The position numbers and the translations under genes are program-made. A stretch of 44,166 bases of DNA from Acetobacteraceae bacterium (lineage in GTDB: Bacteria > Pseudomonadota > Alphaproteobacteria > Acetobacterales > Acetobacteraceae), in assembly GCA_031291795.1 (NCBI GenBank), contig JARLIJ010000136.1, positions 1-44,166 of the forward strand, written 5' to 3'. Below are positions 4,470 through 30,431 of the stretch, in pieces. The notes under the pieces were generated by a model that had not been told where the DNA came from, searched no databases, and saw only the letters and a program-made list of their open reading frames with translations. Positions within the stretch are counted from its first letter, which is position 1. The number at the start of each line of letters is the position of its first letter.

Positions 4470-5330
4470 TCAGGCGGTGCTTCTTGTGTCGGACAGCCCG
4501 ATGGTGACCTGGACGTCGCGGGGCGACGCCGCATACGGGGCGGACGTGGCCAGCACGTCCGCACCCGCAGCGGCATAGGCGGCGGCGTTCGCCGCGCTGA
4601 CACCGCCCGCCGCGACGAGCAGTGGCCGGTGCGGCAGGGCGCCAAGCGCCGCCACCACATGCGCCACCGAATCGATTGGGAATTTCTCCAGTTGCAGGAT
4701 GTCGGCACCCGCATGGGCGAACGCCAGCGCCTCCGCCACGTCGGCGACCTCGACTGCCAGCTTGCGTTCGGGGGCGGCCGCCCGCAGGCGCGCCACCAGG
4801 GCGGCGGGGTCGAGGTCCGGCAGGAACGCGCGATGTTCGGCGAACAGCAGCACGGTGTCGGACAGGCCGGTGCGGTGCATGACGCCACCGCCGGAATGAA
4901 CCGCCTTGATCGAGAGCGTGCGGGTCAGCGGCACCGCCTTGCGCGTGCAGGCGACCACGATGGCGGGACGTTCGCTGCGCGCCGCCGCAATGATCGCGGC
5001 GACCGAGGTGGCGATGCCGGACGCCCACTCGACCAGGGTCTGCGCGGCCTTCCAGCCGGCGTGCAGGGTTGCGCCAGGACCGTGGGCCGTCAGCAGCGGC
5101 GCACCGGGCTGGACGGCCTGGCCACTGCGGGTGATCAGTTCCACCCGCGCACCGAGACGGGCAAGCAGGCGGGCGGCTTCCTCGGTGGCGCAGACGACCA
5201 TCGCGTGGCGCGCGGTGAAGCGCATCACGCCCGCCGCGGCAGTGATGCCCAGGGCCGCGGTGGTCAGGTCGCCGAAGCCGGCATCCTCGGCGATAAGGCG
5301 GTCGATATCGGCGTCGGGAACGTAGACCAT
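4470..5330 (-). CDS. modD: ModD, quinolinate-phosphoribosyltransferase-like protein of the nif/fix operon
   Basis: 286 residues, a NadC paralogue of the ModD type (named in Rhodobacter for a gene following the molybdate transport genes). Its biochemical role is not established. ATG 5330 overlaps the fixX stop (TGATG), so translation is coupled to fixABCX, and the longer upstream frame is rejected. It keeps the NadC TRK and HR motifs (ACTRKAVP, MHRTG). The NadC substrate-site block KDNH is replaced by FAEH, and the later LLDNM by LQLEK, so NAD synthesis is unlikely. The true nadC lies at 34385-35236. Position at the end of a NifA-controlled operon suggests a role in molybdenum handling; this is inference. 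No modABC genes are adjacent. Confidence 0.85.
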   Translation of the reverse strand: MVYVPDADIDRLIAEDAGFGDLTTAALGITAAAGVMRFTARHAMVVCATEEAARLLARLGARVELITRSGQAVQPGAPLLTAHGPGATLHAGWKAAQTLVEWASGIATSVAAIIAAARSERPAIVVACTRKAVPLTRTLSIKAVHSGGGVMHRTGLSDTVLLFAEHRAFLPDLDPAALVARLRAAAPERKLAVEVADVAEALAFAHAGADILQLEKFPIDSVAHVVAALGALPHRPLLVAAGGVSAANAAAYAAAGADVLATSAPYAASPRDVQVTIGLSDTRSTA

Positions 5331-5623
5331 CAGCCGAACTTGAACAGAACGCCGTAGCCGCCGCGGGGGTAGTTCCATTCCACCTCTCCGGTGGCGGCAC
5401 AGACGACGCGGCAGGTGCCGCATTCCATGCAGCCGTCGGCGACGATCTCCACCCTGCCCTGCTCGTTGAGGCTGTAGCAGCTTGCCGGGCAGGCGGTGAC
5501 AAGCGATTTCAGCGCCGGGGATGGAATGTCGTGGTCCCGCACCTTGATGTGCGGCTTGCCGGCATCGACGACATAGCGGTTCTGGTAGAGCTTCTCTTCG
5601 ATACGGGTGCCTTGCGTGCTCAT
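5330..5623 (-). CDS. fixX: FixX ferredoxin-like protein
   Basis: 97 residues, the ferredoxin-like subunit of the FixABCX electron-bifurcating complex, which transfers electrons from NADH to ferredoxin/flavodoxin for nitrogenase while reducing quinone. The C-terminal half carries the cluster motif C-x2-C-x2-C-x3-C (within [12 protein letters not shown]), and two further cysteines occur in ACPASCYS. This matches the FixX family, where one normal cluster motif is kept. It starts 12 bp after fixC and its stop overlaps the modD start by one base. Confidence 0.95.
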
Positions 5624-12722: not shown

Positions 12723-13340
12723 TCAGGCCGCAAGCTCGGCTGTGCGGCGAGTCTGGGCGAGCAGGCTCTCTCCGCCCTCCTCCCCGAAGCAATGGTCGAA
12801 ATCGTCACATTCCGCGCAACTCGGTGCCGCACACAGCAGGAAGCCGTCGTCGCGGCAAATCGTCCGGTAGAAGAATTTCTTCCACTTCATATCCGCCCGG
12901 TTGCGCTCCGCCAGCGGCTCGAAGTGACGCATTAGCATCCAGCCGAGTTCACGTCTGTTGCGAAACCCAAGATCCTGCCAGAGATGATTCGGCCGCATGC
13001 AACGCCGCGCCACCATGTCGGCAAGCCGACACTGAAACGGCGTGCCGTGCGTAGTACTGCGACGGAGGAGGTCCCGCAGACAGGCCTCATCATCGGCCGC
13101 CGCCGAACAGACCTGGCCACGCAGGCGTGCAAACATGGACGCGGCGTGCGGGAACAAGCCCGATGCCAGGTCGGCCAGAACGTCACCATCCAAGCCGACC
13201 GCATCGATCACGCGATGCCTGCCGGCTTCCGACTCCCATAGCGACAATGCCAGGATCGAGGCCGTCACATGTGCATCGAAACCATCGCAGCCCAGGTCGG
13301 GTTCGGCAGTCAGCCACGCGTAGATGTCGGTGGGCTGCAT
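12723..13340 (-). CDS. nifQ: NifQ, molybdenum donor for FeMo-cofactor synthesis
   Basis: 205 residues. NifQ is an Fe-S protein that carries a Mo-Fe-S cluster and provides molybdenum to the NifEN/NifH stage of FeMo-co assembly. The diagnostic C-terminal motif C-x4-C-x2-C-x5-C is present (CAAPSCAECDDFDHC). The middle part (RPNHLWQDLGFRNRRELGWMLMRHFEPLA) also matches the family. It is the last gene of the nifHDKENX operon, 12 bp after fdxB. No strong terminator follows it. Confidence 0.95.
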   Translation of the reverse strand: MQPTDIYAWLTAEPDLGCDGFDAHVTASILALSLWESEAGRHRVIDAVGLDGDVLADLASGLFPHAASMFARLRGQVCSAAADDEACLRDLLRRSTTHGTPFQCRLADMVARRCMRPNHLWQDLGFRNRRELGWMLMRHFEPLAERNRADMKWKKFFYRTICRDDGFLLCAAPSCAECDDFDHCFGEEGGESLLAQTRRTAELAA

Positions 13341-21930: not shown

Positions 21931-22761
21931 CTACAGGTTGTCGGCCAACTCCATTGCGAACGCGGCAAGGTCGTGCTGGACTACAGACGCACCCAGTTCC
22001 TCCAGAAACTTCTGCTCGTTGCGAGACAGTTCAGAGTCCACGACGACGACATGGGCGCCCGCAGACCGCTTTGCAATCTGGCGCGCATAGGTGCGCAGCG
22101 TCTGGTCGTGGAACCGACACCCCAAGAACAGAAATCCACCCTCCGCTCGGCGTGTCTTCACCGTGTCGGGGATCGGTGTCTGAATGTCGATCTCCGTCAG
22201 CACCTCAACATAATCCGCATCGGAGATCAGAAAGTTCGGTGCCGGCGTTACGCAACCATGCGGTTTGTAGATCAACGTCGACCAAGCTTCGGCCTGGGCC
22301 ACGGCACATTCCGAGCCGGTCGAGTCATACGCTCGGTACCAGCGCGACTCACCGGGTTTCGCACGGGATGCAGCATGGATCTCGCCCCAACTCGAAGCGC
22401 CGACAAAAGCGGACCGCAGTGCGGCATCGTACCAGGTATCCACCACCAGCGCCGGCGCCACGCGGGCGATCGCCGCATGCAACGCCGTCAGCTGCACAGG
22501 AGAGGCAAACGCCGTCGCCATCAGTGTGTCCAACGTCGTTCGATGCTTGAAGCTCTCGATGAACTGTGCCGCCGCCCAGGCATTGCCGCGCGCACGACGC
22601 GGCAGGGCAACCTTCGAGCCCAGCCAGGCAGCCAGCGCCTCATAAGACGTCGGAATAGCCGTATCGGACAACGCCGCGATCCCCGGCCCGAGATACGGCA
22701 GCAACGAACCGTTCCGCAAACGAGCCGCAATGCCGGGCGCGGTATTGCTGAATTCGAGCAT
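21931..22761 (-). CDS. SIR2-like protein of the nifB operon
   Basis: 276 residues resembling the SIR2_2-type branch of NAD-linked SIR2-like proteins. The N-terminal RLRNGSLLPYLGPGIAALSD is like the nucleotide-binding start of these proteins, and the IYKPHGCVTPAPNFLISDADY segment resembles their K-x-HG catalytic block. Whether it deacylates, cleaves NAD or is inactive cannot be told. ATG 22761 has a perfect GAGGAG site and follows nifT by 4 bp; an in-frame start six codons earlier overlaps nifT. I recall similar genes in other nif clusters, but no known function. Confidence 0.75.
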   Translation of the reverse strand: MLEFSNTAPGIAARLRNGSLLPYLGPGIAALSDTAIPTSYEALAAWLGSKVALPRRARGNAWAAAQFIESFKHRTTLDTLMATAFASPVQLTALHAAIARVAPALVVDTWYDAALRSAFVGASSWGEIHAASRAKPGESRWYRAYDSTGSECAVAQAEAWSTLIYKPHGCVTPAPNFLISDADYVEVLTEIDIQTPIPDTVKTRRAEGGFLFLGCRFHDQTLRTYARQIAKRSAGAHVVVVDSELSRNEQKFLEELGASVVQHDLAAFAMELADNL

Positions 22762-22765
22762 GGAA

Positions 22766-22978
22766 TTACTCCTCGTCACCGCGCTTGCGCGCGTTCACCG
22801 TGATCGGCAGGCGAGGCGCCGGGTCCAGCGCCGGAAGGTCCAGCACCCAGCCGTTGCGCAACTTCACCCAGCCACCCCACAGCGCCTCGTGCTCGACCTC
22901 GACGATGGCCTCCTCAAGGTCCTTCTTCGGCACATAGGCCGACAGCACCTTGCCGGATTGTCGGATCATGACCTTCAT
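22766..22978 (-). CDS. nifT: NifT/FixU
   Basis: 70 residues matching the NifT/FixU family, a small beta-rich protein of unknown exact function encoded near nifB or nifHDK. Recognisable segments are MKVMIRQSGKVLSAYVPKKDLEE and LWGGWVKLRNGWVLDLP. The ATG overlaps the nifZ stop as ATGA, and the SIR2-like gene begins 4 bp after its own stop, so the three genes are tightly coupled. Confidence 0.93.
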   Translation of the reverse strand: MKVMIRQSGKVLSAYVPKKDLEEAIVEVEHEALWGGWVKLRNGWVLDLPALDPAPRLPITVNARKRGDEE

Positions 22979-25293: not shown

Positions 25294-26976
25294 TCAGAAT
25301 TTCTTGATCGGGATGCTGTGCTTGCGCAGCGCGTAGCCAATCTGGCGCGGCGTCATGCTCAGCAGCCGCGCGGCCTTGGCCTGCACCCAGCCGGACCGCT
25401 CCATCGCCTCGACCAACTGCTCGTATTCCGACTGCCCGCCGGCGCCCGCGGCGTTGGGCACCTTGCAGGTCGCGGCCGATGCGCAGGTCGGTTCGGTCAA
25501 CGCCGGCGCTGCCACCGGCAGGACCGGCAATGCCTGCGCCGGGCGTGGCATCTGCTTCCACAAGACGGCCGACAGGCAGCCATCGTTATGGCAGGCGAAA
25601 TCACGTTCGGAGATCCGCTCTCCCTGCACCAACGTTGCGGTCCGCCGCACGCAGTTCTCCAGCTCCCTCACGTTGCCGGGGAAGTAGCACGACTGCAGCA
25701 CCGGCATGGCGGAGGGCGCCAGCATGACCCGTGTCTTGTTGTCGCTGTTGAACCGGCGGAGGAACTCCTGCGCCAGCAACGGGATGTCGCCCGGCCGATC
25801 GCGCAGCGGCGGCAGGAACAGGGGCACCACCGCCAGGCGATAATACAGGTCGGCGCGAAAGTTCCCCTTCGCGACGGCTTCTTCCAGGTTGCGGTTGGTG
25901 GCGCTCACCAGCCGCACGTCCACCTTCAGGGTACGCGTGCCGCCGACCCTCTCAAACTCACCTTCCTGCAGCACGCGCAACAGTTTCGCCTGGAACGTGG
26001 CGGAGATCTCACCGATCTCATCCAGGAACAACGTTCCGCCGTCGGCCAGTTCGAAGCGCCCCTTGCGCTGGGCGATCGCCCCGGTGAACGAACCCTTCTC
26101 GTGGCCGAACAACTCCGATTCCAGCACGCTCTCCGGCAAGGCCGCGCAGTTCAACTTGATGAAGGGCTTGGCGTGCCGCGGCGACGCCTCATGCAGGGCC
26201 TGGGCGAACAATTCCTTGCCGGTTCCCGACTCACCGCGCAGCAGCACGGGGGACGAGCTGCGCGCCACCAGGCGAAGCTTCTCCATCACCGCCTGCAACG
26301 CCGGGCTTTGGCCCACTATGCCGGACGCCGTGCCGTGGCGCGCGCCAGGCGCGAACTCATCGCGTTCCTTCTCCAGGCGCCGCTGGTCGTCCAGGATCCG
26401 CTCGCGGTCACGGATGACGAGCCGATGCAGCCGCACGGTCTGGGCGATCAGGTTCGCCACCATCTTGAGGAAGCGCACGTCCTCATCGGTACGGATATCG
26501 GCGACATTGAACCACGCCCGGTCGATGGTCATCACGCCAATCGGGCGGCCCCGGTCGCGAATCGGCACGCCCATGAAGGCGTAGTTCTTCCCGCCGTCGC
26601 CCCAGAGGCTGGTGTCCCATTGGCCAAAAGACGTATCTCGCGCGACGTTTTCGATGACCACGGGCATTTCGGTCACCACCATCTGCCCGACCGCCTTCTC
26701 CGGCAGGGCCGCGAAATACTGCCGGGCCGCGGCGTTGTCGTGGGTGGCGGAAAAGACCTCCTCAGGCTCCCCGTCCGCGTCGAGCAGCGCAATCACGCCG
26801 TTGCCCATGTCCAGGAAGCTGTGCAGGACATACAGCGTGCCGGTCAGGACCTCTTGCAGGCTTCCAGGCCCGCACAGCGATTTTGAAATCTCATAGATAC
26901 CCAGCAGCGCGAGGTCGGCGCGATACGGCAGTCGCTCGCTCGGCGCGGCGGCGGAAGCCTTATGTAGCAGCACCAT
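25294..26976 (-). CDS. nifA: NifA, sigma-54-dependent activator of nif genes
   Basis: 560 residues. An N-terminal GAF domain (about 25-170) is followed by an AAA+ domain with Walker A GESGTGKE and the sigma-54 contact loop GSFTGA, then a C-terminal helix-turn-helix ([26 protein letters not shown]). The four cysteines follow C-x11-C-x19-C-x4-C exactly, ending CHNDGC, the mark of oxygen-sensitive alphaproteobacterial NifA. ATG 26976 has GGGGG upstream; an in-frame TTG three codons earlier overlaps that site. It is divergent from the YqeB-like gene. No sigma-54 promoter was found for nifA itself. Confidence 0.97.
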
Positions 26977-27104
26977 CTGGTCCAACCCCCTTTGGTGTCG
27001 GCCTCCTCCACCCCGACAGGATCGGGCAGGTTATGGACAACGACAGCGTGGTTGCAATCCAAATCCGCAGTGCAGCACGCGATGCCAGCGGTTCGGGCGC
27101 ATTT

Positions 27105-27120
27105 TGTCCGGTTCACGACA
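27105..27120. promoter_or_regulatory. NifA upstream activator site between nifA and the YqeB-like gene
   Basis: A perfect TGT-N10-ACA box (TGTCCGGTTCACGACA), centred about 71 bp upstream of the rightward -24 element. It also lies about 137 bp upstream of the nifA start, so it could in principle affect both directions. Confidence 0.8.
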
Positions 27121-27182
27121 GCATTTGGTCGGTTTTGTCGGGAAGCACCGCGGTCGCCTGCGCATCCAGCGCCCCGTGCCGC

Positions 27183-27198
27183 TGGCCCATGTCTTGCA
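27183..27198 (+). promoter_or_regulatory. Sigma-54 promoter of the YqeB-like/NifO-like operon
   Basis: TGGCCCATGTCTTGCA has the required GG/GC spacing, with one mismatch (C for A) in the TGGCAC half. It ends 47 bases before the ATG at 27246 and has a perfect NifA box upstream, so nif control of this operon is likely. Confidence 0.75.
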
Positions 27199-27245
27199 GC
27201 ACGCCGAATTTGCACGACAAACGATCACTCCGCGGAGACAACGCC

Positions 27246-28103
27246 ATGCACGACCCTGGGCTGATGATCTCCGGCCATGATCCCAAGCCCGTCCTGGTCC
27301 TCGGCACCGACGATATTGCATCCGCCGTCGGCCACGCTCTCGCGCGTGGCGGGATTCGCACCGTTCTGGTGCGCGATCCGACGCTGCCGGTCCTGCGCCG
27401 GTCTATGTCGTTTGACGATGCTGTCGAGTATGGGTCCGTACTGCTCGACGGGATCGTTGCATGTGCCGCCGACCTGCCGCTGCTGCGTGGCGCCTGCGGA
27501 CTGCTGAGCGTCACGGCGCGACGGCCCGAGGAACTGCTTGATCCCGCCTTGATCGAGGGCGTCATCGATGCCCGCATGCGACGGCGGGATGAAAAGCACG
27601 ACCTGCGCGGCGCCCTTGGATTCGCGATCGGCCTCGGCCCGGGCTTCATCGCCGGCGGCAATGTCGACCTGGCGGTGGAAACCGCGCCCGAGGCAACCGG
27701 TCGCATTCTGCGCCGGGGCGAAACCATTCCGGCGCATGGGAAATCCGTCCCGATTGCCGGCGTGGGACGAGAACGTTTCGGCCGCGCCCCTCGCCCCGGC
27801 CTGTGGTGGACGCACCGCGCGATTGGGGAGGCCGTGGAGGCCGACGAGGTGGTCGGCCTGTGCGGTGGTGTGCAGGTGCGCGCGCCCCTCCGCGGATGCC
27901 TGCGCGGGCTGGTACGGCCCGGCAGCGAGGCCCATACCGGCATGCGGTTGCTCGAAGTCGACCCGCGCGGTCCCAAGGCGCGATACCAGGGCATCCCGCC
28001 GCGCGCGGCCGCGATCGCCGCGGCAACTTTGGCTGCATTGCGCGAACTGTGCGACTCGCCAAGGCCGGTGGCACAGGCGGAGACTGGCGCATGGCTCGCG
28101 TAA
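27246..28103 (+). CDS. YqeB-like molybdenum-hydroxylase accessory protein
   Basis: 285 residues resembling the YqeB/EF2563 family of accessory proteins for (selenium-dependent) molybdenum hydroxylases. A Rossmann-type start PVLVLGTDDIASAVGHALARGG is followed by the family-like RRSMSFDDAVEYGSVLLDGI. The later blocks DLRGALGFAIGLGPGFIAGGNVDLAVET and HTGMRLLEVDPRG also fit. No hydroxylase gene is near. Instead it is preceded by a sigma-54 promoter and NifA box and overlaps the NifO-like gene by 13 bp. A role in molybdenum or sulfur delivery during nitrogen fixation is inferred, not known. ATG 27246 has GGAG nine bases upstream. Confidence 0.72.
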   Translation: MHDPGLMISGHDPKPVLVLGTDDIASAVGHALARGGIRTVLVRDPTLPVLRRSMSFDDAVEYGSVLLDGIVACAADLPLLRGACGLLSVTARRPEELLDPALIEGVIDARMRRRDEKHDLRGALGFAIGLGPGFIAGGNVDLAVETAPEATGRILRRGETIPAHGKSVPIAGVGRERFGRAPRPGLWWTHRAIGEAVEADEVVGLCGGVQVRAPLRGCLRGLVRPGSEAHTGMRLLEVDPRGPKARYQGIPPRAAAIAAATLAALRELCDSPRPVAQAETGAWLA

Positions 28104-28534
28104 CGGTCTGGGGCAAGCCCGGCTGTGCCGGCAATGCACGGCAGGTCGCGTTGCTGCGTGCCTCGGGCCATGACGTGGCACTCCGGGACCTGCGCGCCGA
28201 ACCGTGGACGCCAGAGCGGCTGCGTCCGTTCTTCGGCGACCAACCCGTCCGGACCTGGTTCAACGCGTCCAACCCTCGGGTGAAGCGCGGCGAGATGAAG
28301 CCCGAGATGCTGTCTGAAGCGGACGCGCTGGCGATGATGATCGGCGAACCGCTGCTGATCCGGCGTCCCTTGCTGGAATGCAACGGAGTCCGGATGGCCG
28401 GGTTCGACCCGGATTTCATTGCCGGCTGGATCGGCCTGGCCACTGGCCTGCCGCCGGTCGGCGAAGGCTGCCCGCGCCCCGACATGCCGCCGTGTCAGGT
28501 CCCCGAGAACGCGACGACCGGCGCACCGCAGTAA
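28091..28534 (+). CDS. nifO: NifO-like nitrogenase-associated protein (ArsC/Spx fold)
   Basis: 147 residues with a thioredoxin-like ArsC-family layout: ARVTVWGKPGCAGNARQVALLRASGHDV, in which a single Cys-containing PGCAGN loop replaces the redox motif, then PVRTWFNASNPRVKRGEM and LLIRRPLLECNGVRMAGFD. This is the nitrogenase-associated ArsC-like group; in Azotobacter, nifO lies in the nifB-fdxN-nifO-nifQ operon and affects molybdenum use between nitrogenase and nitrate reductase. It overlaps the end of the YqeB-like gene by 13 bp, so translation is probably coupled. The C-terminal tail is Pro/Cys-rich. Confidence 0.82.
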   Translation: MARVTVWGKPGCAGNARQVALLRASGHDVALRDLRAEPWTPERLRPFFGDQPVRTWFNASNPRVKRGEMKPEMLSEADALAMMIGEPLLIRRPLLECNGVRMAGFDPDFIAGWIGLATGLPPVGEGCPRPDMPPCQVPENATTGAPQ

Positions 28535-28598
28535 GCCGCGTTCCGTTCTCGGCTCGGACCATGACGCAAGCCGTTACGGAGCGGTCTGCCTAAAGCGG

Positions 28599-28733
28599 TT
28601 TCACAGTAACTGGAAACACCCCATGCCGTCCTGGCCGGGCTTGTCCCGGCCATCTATCGCGGCACGGTGCTGGTACAGATGGCCGGGACAAGCCCGGCCA
28701 GGACGGAGGGAGGTGTTTCCAGTTACTGTGAAA
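28599..28733. repeat. 135-bp nested palindromic element (REP/MITE-like)
   Basis: Two nested pairs of arms are visible. The outer 22-bp arms are 28599-28620 and 28712-28733; the inner 30-bp arms are 28626-28655 and 28677-28706, around a 21-base centre. The inner arm, containing CTGGCCGGGCTTGTCCCGGC, resembles a repeat I recall as abundant in alphaproteobacterial genomes. It fills most of the gap between two convergent operons and ends 5 bp before the stop of the DUF2478 gene. It could act as a two-way terminator. Confidence 0.85.
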
Positions 28734-28738
28734 ATGCT

Positions 28739-29302
28739 CTATCGGCTCGTCTCGGCAGCAGCCCGCCGTTCGGCCCAGGTCGTGCGGCTGGGACAATGCC
28801 CCGCCGCCCACGCCAGGATCGCGTCTACCTGCGGCGCCAGCACCTCGCCTGGTCCCCCCAGGAAGGCGTTCCAGGCCGGCAACGTCGCAACGCGCATCGG
28901 TACCAGCAGGGGGATGCCGGCGATCAAGGCCTCGGCCATTTCGTGACGCAGGCCGCCGCCGGCCACTTCCTCCTTGCCGAACCGGCTGGCCAGCAGCAGG
29001 TCGGGACGATTTTCGACAGCCACGCGGAACGCCATCGTCGCGCGTGCCAGCGCGTCGGTGTCCAGGATGCAGCCCTGCACCCCGGGCCCGCGCGGGTCGT
29101 TCAACTGAATCGTTTCGTCATCCAGCAGGACCTGCAGCAGCATCTCGCGCTTGCATGCAGCGATCTGGGCGCCGAACCGCTGCAACAGCCCGCCGACCGT
29201 GCGGCCGGACTGTCGCAGCACCTGCACCGCGGCGGCAAGCGCGGCATCGGCGTCGTCGCCCGGCCCGTAGACCACTGCAGCGGTATGGAGTTGCGTCGCC
29301 AT
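28739..29302 (-). CDS. DUF2478-type protein in the nifV operon
   Basis: 187 residues resembling DUF2478 proteins, small soluble proteins that I associate with molybdenum-related gene neighbourhoods; no activity is established. The conserved-looking parts are LLLASRFGKEEVAGGGLRHEMAEALIAGIPLLVPM and a start AAVVYGPGDDADAALAAAVQVL that suggests a degenerate NTPase-like fold without a normal P-loop. It begins 4 bp after nifV and is therefore transcribed from the nifV sigma-54 promoter. Its stop abuts the palindromic element. Confidence 0.72.
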   Translation of the reverse strand: MATQLHTAAVVYGPGDDADAALAAAVQVLRQSGRTVGGLLQRFGAQIAACKREMLLQVLLDDETIQLNDPRGPGVQGCILDTDALARATMAFRVAVENRPDLLLASRFGKEEVAGGGLRHEMAEALIAGIPLLVPMRVATLPAWNAFLGGPGEVLAPQVDAILAWAAGHCPSRTTWAERRAAAETSR

Positions 29303-29306
29303 GTCG

Positions 29307-30431
29307 TTACTCTCCTGCCACGGCGAGCAGCGACCGCAGCTCCGCCTGGGTGACCGATCGTTTCACGCGTTCCGCATGGGCGCGCAGACGCACCAACAGG
29401 TCCGGCAGCGCGGCCGAGGGAATATCCATGCCCTGCAACGCCGCGCGCAGCGATGCGGAGCCGGAATGCTTGCCCAGCAGGATGCGCCGCTCCCGGCCGA
29501 ACAGGGCCGGATCGAGTGCCTCATAGGTGCCAGGATCGCGCAGCAGGCCGCTGACATGGATGCCGGATTCGTGGGTGAACGCGGTCTCACCCACGATCGG
29601 CTGGCCGGGCGGGATGGTGCGGCAGGCCGCCGAGGCGACGACTTCCGCCAGGTGGGACAGTTCCGCCATCACCACCTGCACGCGACCCATGGCCAAACGC
29701 GGGATCGCGGCTGCGACCTGTTCCAGCGCGGCGTTGCCGGCGCGCTCGCCCAGGCCGAGCACACAGACGCTTGCATGGGTTGCGCCGCCGCGGAGAGCAG
29801 CGAGCGTGTTGGCAGTGGCCAGGCCCAGATCGTCATGGCCGTAGAATTCCAGATCAAGGTCGGTGCGCGCGGACAGGCGGCGAAAGGTCGCTTCGGTTTC
29901 GAACGGATCGAGCACGCCCAGCGTATCGGCGAAGCGAAAGCGATAGGCGCCCGCCGACGCGATCCGGTCGATCACCTCTTGCAGGAAATCGGGGTCTGCG
30001 CGGCTGGCATCTTCGCCGCCGACCGAAACGGTCAGGCCACGATCGAGCGCCAGCGGCACGACGCGGGCAACGCGGTCCAGGACCTCCTGCCGGCCGCCGG
30101 GATATTTGGCGGCGATCTGCCGGTCGGATACCGAAACGGACAGGTTGGCGTAGCGCACACCGGCTTGCAGGGCCGCGGCGACATCCGCCTCGGTCATGCG
30201 GCACCAGGCGGCGACGCGGGCGTCGGGTGCCGCGGCAACGGCGGCGGCGATGGCGGCGATCTCCTCGGCGCCCATGGCGGGCGTGCCGGCTTCGATTTCG
30301 TCGATGCCCGCAGCCTGCAGGGCGGCGGCAATGGCGGCTTTCTCAGCGGCGGTGAAGGCGACGCCCGGCGTCTGCTCGCCGTCACGCAGGGTGGTGTCGT
30401 TGATGGAGAAACGCTGGCTGCTGTCCGACAC
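29307..30431 (-). CDS. nifV: NifV, homocitrate synthase
   Basis: 374 residues. NifV condenses acetyl-CoA with 2-oxoglutarate to homocitrate, the organic ligand of FeMo-co. The catalytic start INDTTLRDGEQTPGVAFTAAEK, the later GHDDLGLATANTLAAL and the metal-binding HESGIHVSG block are those of the isopropylmalate/homocitrate synthase family. It is nif-type by context: a sigma-54 promoter lies 34 bases upstream. Unlike clusters where nifV follows nifS, it has its own two-gene operon here. Confidence 0.95.
   Translation of the reverse strand: MSDSSQRFSINDTTLRDGEQTPGVAFTAAEKAAIAAALQAAGIDEIEAGTPAMGAEEIAAIAAAVAAAPDARVAAWCRMTEADVAAALQAGVRYANLSVSVSDRQIAAKYPGGRQEVLDRVARVVPLALDRGLTVSVGGEDASRADPDFLQEVIDRIASAGAYRFRFADTLGVLDPFETEATFRRLSARTDLDLEFYGHDDLGLATANTLAALRGGATHASVCVLGLGERAGNAALEQVAAAIPRLAMGRVQVVMAELSHLAEVVASAACRTIPPGQPIVGETAFTHESGIHVSGLLRDPGTYEALDPALFGRERRILLGKHSGSASLRAALQGMDIPSAALPDLLVRLRAHAERVKRSVTQAELRSLLAVAGE

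Follow-up and report, generated by a model that had tools for sequence, protein, structure and literature searches.

What does a YqeB-like gene do in a nitrogenase gene cluster? The question is raised by a contig of an Acetobacteraceae bacterium (GCA_031291795.1, JARLIJ010000136.1), of which a stretch of 44,166 nucleotides, here called the window, was analysed. A YqeB-like gene in the nif cluster of the window follows a NifA-type promoter, and overlaps a nifO gene. An earlier note had read the two genes as a NifA-controlled module that handles molybdenum or its sulfur ligand for FeMo-co synthesis. Sequence comparison indicates that the YqeB-like gene is a real, recurrent and NifA-linked accessory gene in part of the alphaproteobacterial diazotrophs, and its function is most likely molybdenum supply. 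The relatives were found by a scan of one genome per species, which gave 227. The analysis used the best 80 (L077-L156); as near-identical strains are among these, counts over them are not independent. The relevant features of the window are as follows.

27105-27120, + strand: NifA upstream activator box TGT-N10-ACA, TGTCCGGTTCACGACA (motif search; aligned in L077-L079)
27183-27198, + strand: sigma-54 -24/-12 promoter TGGCCC-N5-TTGCA, TGGCCCATGTCTTGCA, pointing at the YqeB-like gene (motif search; aligned in L077-L079)
27246-28103, + strand: YqeB-like protein, 285 aa, with a Rossmann-like N-terminal part and a predicted biotinyl/lipoyl-like C-terminal domain, about 165-241 (TIGR03309, 121.8 bits, cut-off 220; model; PDB comparison)
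28091-28534, + strand: NifO, ArsC/Spx-like nitrogenase-associated protein, 147 aa (TIGR01616, 154.2 bits, over the cut-off of 109)
25294-26985, - strand: NifA, divergent neighbour, TTG start as listed (TIGR01817, 718.8 bits)
28739-29302, - strand: DUF2478 protein (PF10649, 151.7 bits; in 11 of the best 80 of 227 loci)
29307-30431, - strand: NifV homocitrate synthase (TIGR02660, 477.6 bits)
12723-13340, - strand: NifQ (PF04891, E 5.6e-51)
4470-5423, - strand: ModD, 3' of fixABC in the same nif cluster (TIGR01334, 285.2 bits, over the cut-off of 178.85)

The coordinates bear out the 13-bp overlap of the YqeB-like and nifO genes (28091-28103), and the TIGR01616 match ('nitrogenase-associated protein') agrees with the earlier NifO-like call. 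GGAG precedes the ATG at 27246, as read directly from the sequence. Profile search showed that NifX and NifZ are also encoded in the cluster.

Other features of the locus were observed as well. The nif cluster also contains a gene for a PF13289 SIR2-like protein (21931-22779, - strand), placed between those for NifH and NifZ; relatives of this protein lie close to the YqeB-like gene in 14 of the best 80 loci. A 75-nt inverted repeat (28591-28741; arms 85% complementary, with 1 nt between) separates nifO from the DUF2478 gene. Both arms contain TTTCACAGTAACTGGAAACACC. The repeat may be small and mobile, or may be a terminator, and 20 bases of it were found again in three loci of other genomes (L095, L188, and L201). 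The window's genome also has a second nif cluster (G000:C54, L169 1-18042), with modD, fixCBA, nifW, nifS, nifU, hesB, nifQ ... nifD. Its DNA is about 87-92% identical to that of the window over two long stretches, and it is cut by the contig end. This cluster may be a duplicate, or may come from a second strain in the bin.

A sister clade of the true YqeB proteins

Profile search showed that TIGR03309 (YqeB) is the single NCBIfam match of the 27246-28103 product, with residues 16-265 aligned on profile positions 1-253 of 256 (E 3.4e-35). The curated equivalog cut-off of 220 bits was missed at 121.8 bits, although the match is full-length. Six other members of the clade scored 100-187 bits, versus 321-417 bits for E. 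coli YqeB and three further true YqeBs (L044, L045, and L046). No Pfam family was found for the window protein at E 1. XdhC_C was matched by only 2 of 72 aligned proteins (best E 0.0017), which does not place the clade in the XdhC/CoxI family. The RGHxLG motif, defined in this analysis from true YqeBs and not from the literature, is present in 4/4 true YqeBs and in 0/83 clade rows. In the phylogenetic tree, the 83 clade rows split from E. coli YqeB and the three other true YqeBs (branch 1.78, SH-aLRT 100). The window protein and the YqeB/EF2563 family share full-length homology and, in the two true YqeBs compared, the residues R51-R52, D108, R121, G131, and E145-T146. The clade differs from true YqeB in its separate position, its scores below the equivalog cut-off, the absence of RGHxLG, its NifA-type promoter, and its occurrence without SelD and, in some genomes, without molybdenum hydroxylases. 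The sequence evidence thus places it as the sister clade of true YqeB. The YqeB/EF2563-like identity proposed earlier stands as homology, whereas YqeB proper is rejected. The gene is neither YqeB nor a new kind of system; it is a variant of the YqeB kind. Haft and Self tied TIGR03309 to selD genomes and described a sharp score drop before homologues largely from selD-less species (PMC2276186, in the part available). The nif-type clade is very likely part of this lower-scoring set.

The structure model of the window protein (pLDDT 89, pTM 0.88) suggests that residues about 165-241 adopt a biotinyl/lipoyl carrier fold. The modifiable lysine of such carrier domains lies in an AMKM-type hairpin. 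The window protein has no lysine at 195 to 216, the stretch before and through an A213-P214 motif, with the place of the hairpin judged from sequence. Three arginines (R51, R52, and R121) are invariant in 70 aligned clade members, and four others (R177, R220, R224, and R241) are nearly invariant.

SelD was found over its cut-off in 22 of the 58 genomes carrying the clade. In the window's genome, which is 69% complete, the SelD-like match is partial and reaches 116 bits (cut-off 125), and SelD passes the cut-off in the three nearest Rhodopila relatives. Selenium independence therefore holds at the clade level, not for the window's own cell. Among 29 SelD-less genomes with a nif setting, 24 contain molybdenum hydroxylases, and a PF02738 search at E 1e-8 found none in five: G541 and G626 (99% complete), and G644, G650, and G659 (completeness not given). 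Thus, a clade member can serve in cells without either known partner of YqeB. The earlier note had also stated that no molybdenum hydroxylase is nearby. This is true of the window's contig, which has no PF02738 match, but not of the rest of the genome, where 13 matches fall in 12 open frames. As the protein is not YqeB proper, no missing hydroxylase needs to be explained.

Predicted NifA control and distribution

The perfect TGT-N10-ACA box and the -24/-12 promoter described in the earlier note are both present, although the gap between them is 62 bp edge to edge (78 bp start to start), and not 71 bp. The -24/-12 element has one mismatch to TGGCAC-N5-TTGCW. Neither motif alone is above chance in the window: 7 perfect boxes were found versus 4.81 expected, a number reached by 24 of 100 shuffles, and 27 -24/-12 sites with at most 2 mismatches versus 22.45 expected. 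The case for the promoter is therefore comparative. Both elements align with those of three Rhodopila genomes (L077-L079), and both were also read by eye in L029. A promoter pair was defined as TGT-N10-ACA lying 30-200 bp upstream of a -24/-12 element that scores at least 12.5 of 15 points, at most 400 bp before the gene; this threshold was chosen after a first look at the data. Such a pair precedes the YqeB-like gene in 52 of the best 80 loci (nif 19/35, nif and mod 8/10, mod only 20/25, neither 5/10). As controls, pairs were found at 1.65% of 20,000 random positions, before 10 of 625 unlabelled neighbour genes, and before 31 of 210 panel genes. Where nif neighbours are lacking (35 of the best 80 loci), the pair was found in 20 of the 23 nifD-bearing genomes versus 5 of the 12 without a nifD match (p 0.015). 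Most YqeB-like members of nif-bearing genomes have the NifA box and the sigma-54 promoter, and these include copies more than 10 kb from any nif gene. The pair is absent at six Azospirillaceae loci (L098, L100, L107, L131, L136, and L153), three of which sit just downstream of nifO. By comparison with relatives, the predicted pair before the YqeB-like gene exceeds chance. The NifA/sigma-54 control claimed earlier is supported as a prediction, with the activator box and the -24/-12 element in the right order and conserved in relatives.

Similar sites have been reported under other gene names. In the part of Tsoy 2016 available (PMC4999443), NifA sites were placed before modABC, modD, and an 'xdhC' in Alphaproteobacteria, and the link of this 'xdhC' to nitrogen fixation was called unknown. 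For Bradyrhizobium DOA9, the portion available of a 2026 paper gives an RpoN site TGGCCCGGCTCTTGC at -60 of 'xdhC/coxF' (PMC13207237). The sites are presented as predictions in these portions of both papers. The letters of TGGCCCGGCTCTTGC, the DOA9 -24/-12 element, are identical to those before the YqeB-like gene in L149 and L150. The 'xdhC' and 'xdhC/coxF' of these sources are probably the YqeB-like gene under another name, and NifA control as such is therefore not new. In a search of open-licence papers, no mention of a YqeB-family gene as part of a nif cluster was found. The search also found no report of the gene's place in a sister clade of YqeB, of its link to Mo/W transport operons, of its independence of SelD and hydroxylases, or of its coupling to NifO.

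The distribution of the gene was compared with that of NifD. Among 347 genomes of the window's family, the YqeB-like protein query matched 16, and NifD matched 17 at E 1e-60 (16 over the cut-off). The YqeB-like gene occurs in 8 of the 17 genomes with a NifD match versus 8 of the 330 others (p 5e-8). In a class-wide draw, NifD was found in 9 of 289 genomes, and the YqeB-like gene in 1 of these 9, which is the window's own genome; the three remaining matches come from genomes without NifD and, scoring over the cut-off, are true YqeBs. The gene was thus not found in 9 of the 17 nifD genomes of the family, nor in 8 of the 9 of the class-wide draw; nitrogenase as such can therefore do without it. 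As most diazotrophs of that draw lack it, the gene is an auxiliary one, perhaps for low molybdenum. The best 80 of the 227 relatives are mostly from Alphaproteobacteria (Acetobacteraceae, Xanthobacteraceae, Bradyrhizobium, Methylocystaceae, Azospirillaceae, and others), together with three Thermomicrobia and one Variovorax bin. The family is represented in named strains of Xanthobacter, Azorhizobium, Bradyrhizobium, Methylocystis, and Nitrospirillum.

Neighbourhoods of the relatives

The neighbourhoods, within about 10 kb, were surveyed in tblastn searches that used nif, fix, and mod proteins as a panel. Among the best 80 of the 227 loci, a nif gene lies near 45, a modA/modD/modE-like gene near 35, and either near 70 (35 nif, 10 nif and mod, 25 mod only, and 10 neither). 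In 40 random 20-kb regions of three genomes, nif genes were found in 2 and mod genes in 1. The mod region coincides with one of the nif regions (L198), and is itself a YqeB-like locus; the second nif region is a nifA match. A panel match to nifA may be another activator; with nifA left out, the counts are 36 of the best 80 loci versus 1 of the 40 random regions, and nifA alone among the counted genes accounts for 9 of the 45 nif loci. A modA or modD match of at least 80 bits is found in 21 of the best 80 loci versus 0/40 random regions. The ModE-like part is the weakest of the neighbourhood evidence. In the best 80 loci, 11 of the 25 mod-only loci owe their class to a ModE-type helix-turn-helix gene only, and no ModE-like match reaches 80 bits; in three ModE-like genes tested, the ModE repressor domain TIGR00637 matched below its cut-off. 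The ModA, ModD, and NifO of L032, which are panel proteins or were found there, are over their cut-offs.

Several plasmids link the family to transport operons. In both Burkholderia vietnamiensis, where it is annotated shorter, and Paraburkholderia aromaticivorans, the YqeB-like gene comes after the gene for an ABC transporter ATPase; the transporter is annotated for tungstate/molybdate in the former and is similarly arranged in the latter. In Thermomicrobium roseum, the YqeB-like gene overlaps the permease gene after modA, and this ModA passes its cut-off. Scores below the respective cut-offs were found for the Burkholderia ModE-like and WtpA-like proteins. No nif gene is annotated in the stretches shown of these three plasmids. 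Two YqeB-like copies were found in each of three Rhodopila bins, one in the nif cluster (L077-L079) and the other (L095, L092, and L094) beside a DUF2478 gene and a ModE-like gene. DUF2478 relatives also adjoin mod-linked copies, and TauE/SafE transporters (sulfite-exporter family) lie beside several members. In L109 and L118, a chromate transporter gene is followed by the YqeB-like gene; the transporter was tested in L034, where it has the same place. This branch suggests a wider oxyanion role.

Some further arrangements were noted. In the L109, L118 (L034) branch, the YqeB-like gene is preceded by the chromate transporter gene and by one judged by eye to be rhodanese-like, and is followed by an MFS transporter gene. 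Two YqeB-like copies occur within one locus in L101, L127, and L135, and a ModE-like gene lies between the copies in L101 and L135. One genome with a nif-linked YqeB-like gene also encodes two NifD paralogues (G428:C1 332668-333990 and 5357472-5358794). They score 369 and 335 bits, under the NifD cut-off, and are possible alternative (V or Fe) nitrogenases.

The pairing with NifO recurs in several lineages and is not fixed. The window's NifO is a plain member of its family (TIGR01616). Among the best 80 loci, nifO is present in 16 and directly adjacent on the same strand in 9, in either gene order (L077-L079, overlapping; L107, L116, L134, L136, L153, and L155). Glutaredoxin (17), ModD (16), and ModE-like (19) neighbours are as frequent in these 80 loci, so the two-protein module is weaker than had been claimed: the adjacency recurs, but it is one of several arrangements. 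In the part of PMC5249018 available, which cites Gutierrez 1997, NifO is said to bear on the distribution of molybdenum between nitrogenase and nitrate reductase in A. vinelandii, and the operon is given as nifB-fdxN-nifO-nifQ, in contrast to the window, where nifO overlaps the YqeB-like gene.

Molybdenum supply and rival readings

The YqeB-like gene probably encodes a small cytoplasmic molybdenum-handling protein, induced by NifA and acting between molybdenum uptake and FeMo-co synthesis (probability about 0.6). This role is proposed because most near relatives are found in nif clusters or next to genes that are ModE-like or serve Mo/W uptake. The molybdenum role suggested by the earlier note is thereby supported, and more strongly than in that note, by relatives that adjoin Mo/W transport genes. 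In the proposed mechanism, the protein would be made when NifA switches on nitrogenase. It would take up molybdate, or a thio or reduced form, after import, and either hold it or hand it to FeMo-co assembly. NifQ is the molybdenum donor for FeMo-co in other diazotrophs. The protein might act, most plausibly, upstream of or at NifQ, though this is a guess; both ModD and NifQ are encoded in the window's own cluster. The N-terminal Rossmann-like part may bind a nucleotide or a partner, while the biotinyl-like domain, without a modifiable lysine, may be a cargo or docking domain. The seven conserved arginines are candidate oxyanion ligands. The neighbouring NifO, ModD, glutaredoxin, and rhodanese proteins may act in the same supply step.

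Other readings of the gene were weighed against this one. It is unlikely that the sulfur ligand is handled and not molybdenum itself, with a thiomolybdate or persulfide species made or protected for NifQ or the Mo site. The glutaredoxin (17) and rhodanese/ankyrin (6) neighbours in the best 80 loci, the adjoining TauE/SafE transporters, and the match of NifO to the ArsC family would be consistent with it; in C. difficile, the purine growth defect seen on loss of selD also follows from loss of the true yqeB, according to the available part of PMC11448449. However, no cysteine column is conserved in the clade; at the best one, 51 of 70 members have Cys, and the window protein has Val. It is quite unlikely that the protein matures a molybdenum hydroxylase (xanthine dehydrogenase type) induced during nitrogen fixation, in the manner of true YqeB or XdhC. 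The five hydroxylase-less genomes among the 29, the missing RGHxLG motif, and the hydroxylase-free contig of the window argue against this function, despite the full-length TIGR03309 homology, the annotation of some relatives as 'xanthine dehydrogenase' or maturation factor, and the hydroxylases found in the 24 other genomes and in the window's own.

A molybdenum sensor or regulator, tying nif or mod expression to molybdenum status together with ModE-like proteins, is very unlikely. ModE-type helix-turn-helix genes occur in 19 of the best 80 loci, and one group of such genes lies at a median of 0.9 kb from the YqeB-like gene, centre to centre, in 18 loci; yet 61 of the 80 loci have no ModE-like match, and Pfam search found no DNA-binding or signalling domain in the window protein. 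The gene might also be a passenger of nif clusters with no role in nitrogen fixation, as its absence from many nifD genomes of the family and the class-wide draw would allow. This is highly improbable, since the linkage recurs in different families and different positions, and NifA/sigma-54 promoters are found even at copies over 10 kb from a nif gene. A broader proposal, rather doubtful at present, is that the clade consists of general group-6 oxyanion carriers (molybdate, tungstate, and perhaps chromate). The nif branch would then load molybdenum into NifQ (or an equivalent) for FeMo-co, with NifO as a partner, and the selenium-cofactor YqeB would be an offshoot carrying an activated molybdenum or selenium species.

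For molybdenum supply, the preferred reading, the known systems are NifQ, an Fe-S molybdoprotein, and the storage protein MoSto (PMC11605450 and PMC6448029, in the parts available). The supply in Azotobacter vinelandii by NifQ and MoSto concerns the same step as that proposed for the YqeB-like protein, whereas these proteins belong to different families. A figure legend of a 2024 paper draws an unknown protein that would swap Fe for Mo in the NifQ cluster (PMC11605450). The molybdenum route from the uptake system to NifQ thus still has a missing player, and the YqeB-like family is a candidate for it by location and regulation. The findings also tie YqeB, a little understood selenium-cofactor protein, to a broader molybdenum-linked family. 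They might have a bearing on moving nitrogenase into new hosts, where molybdenum supply counts.
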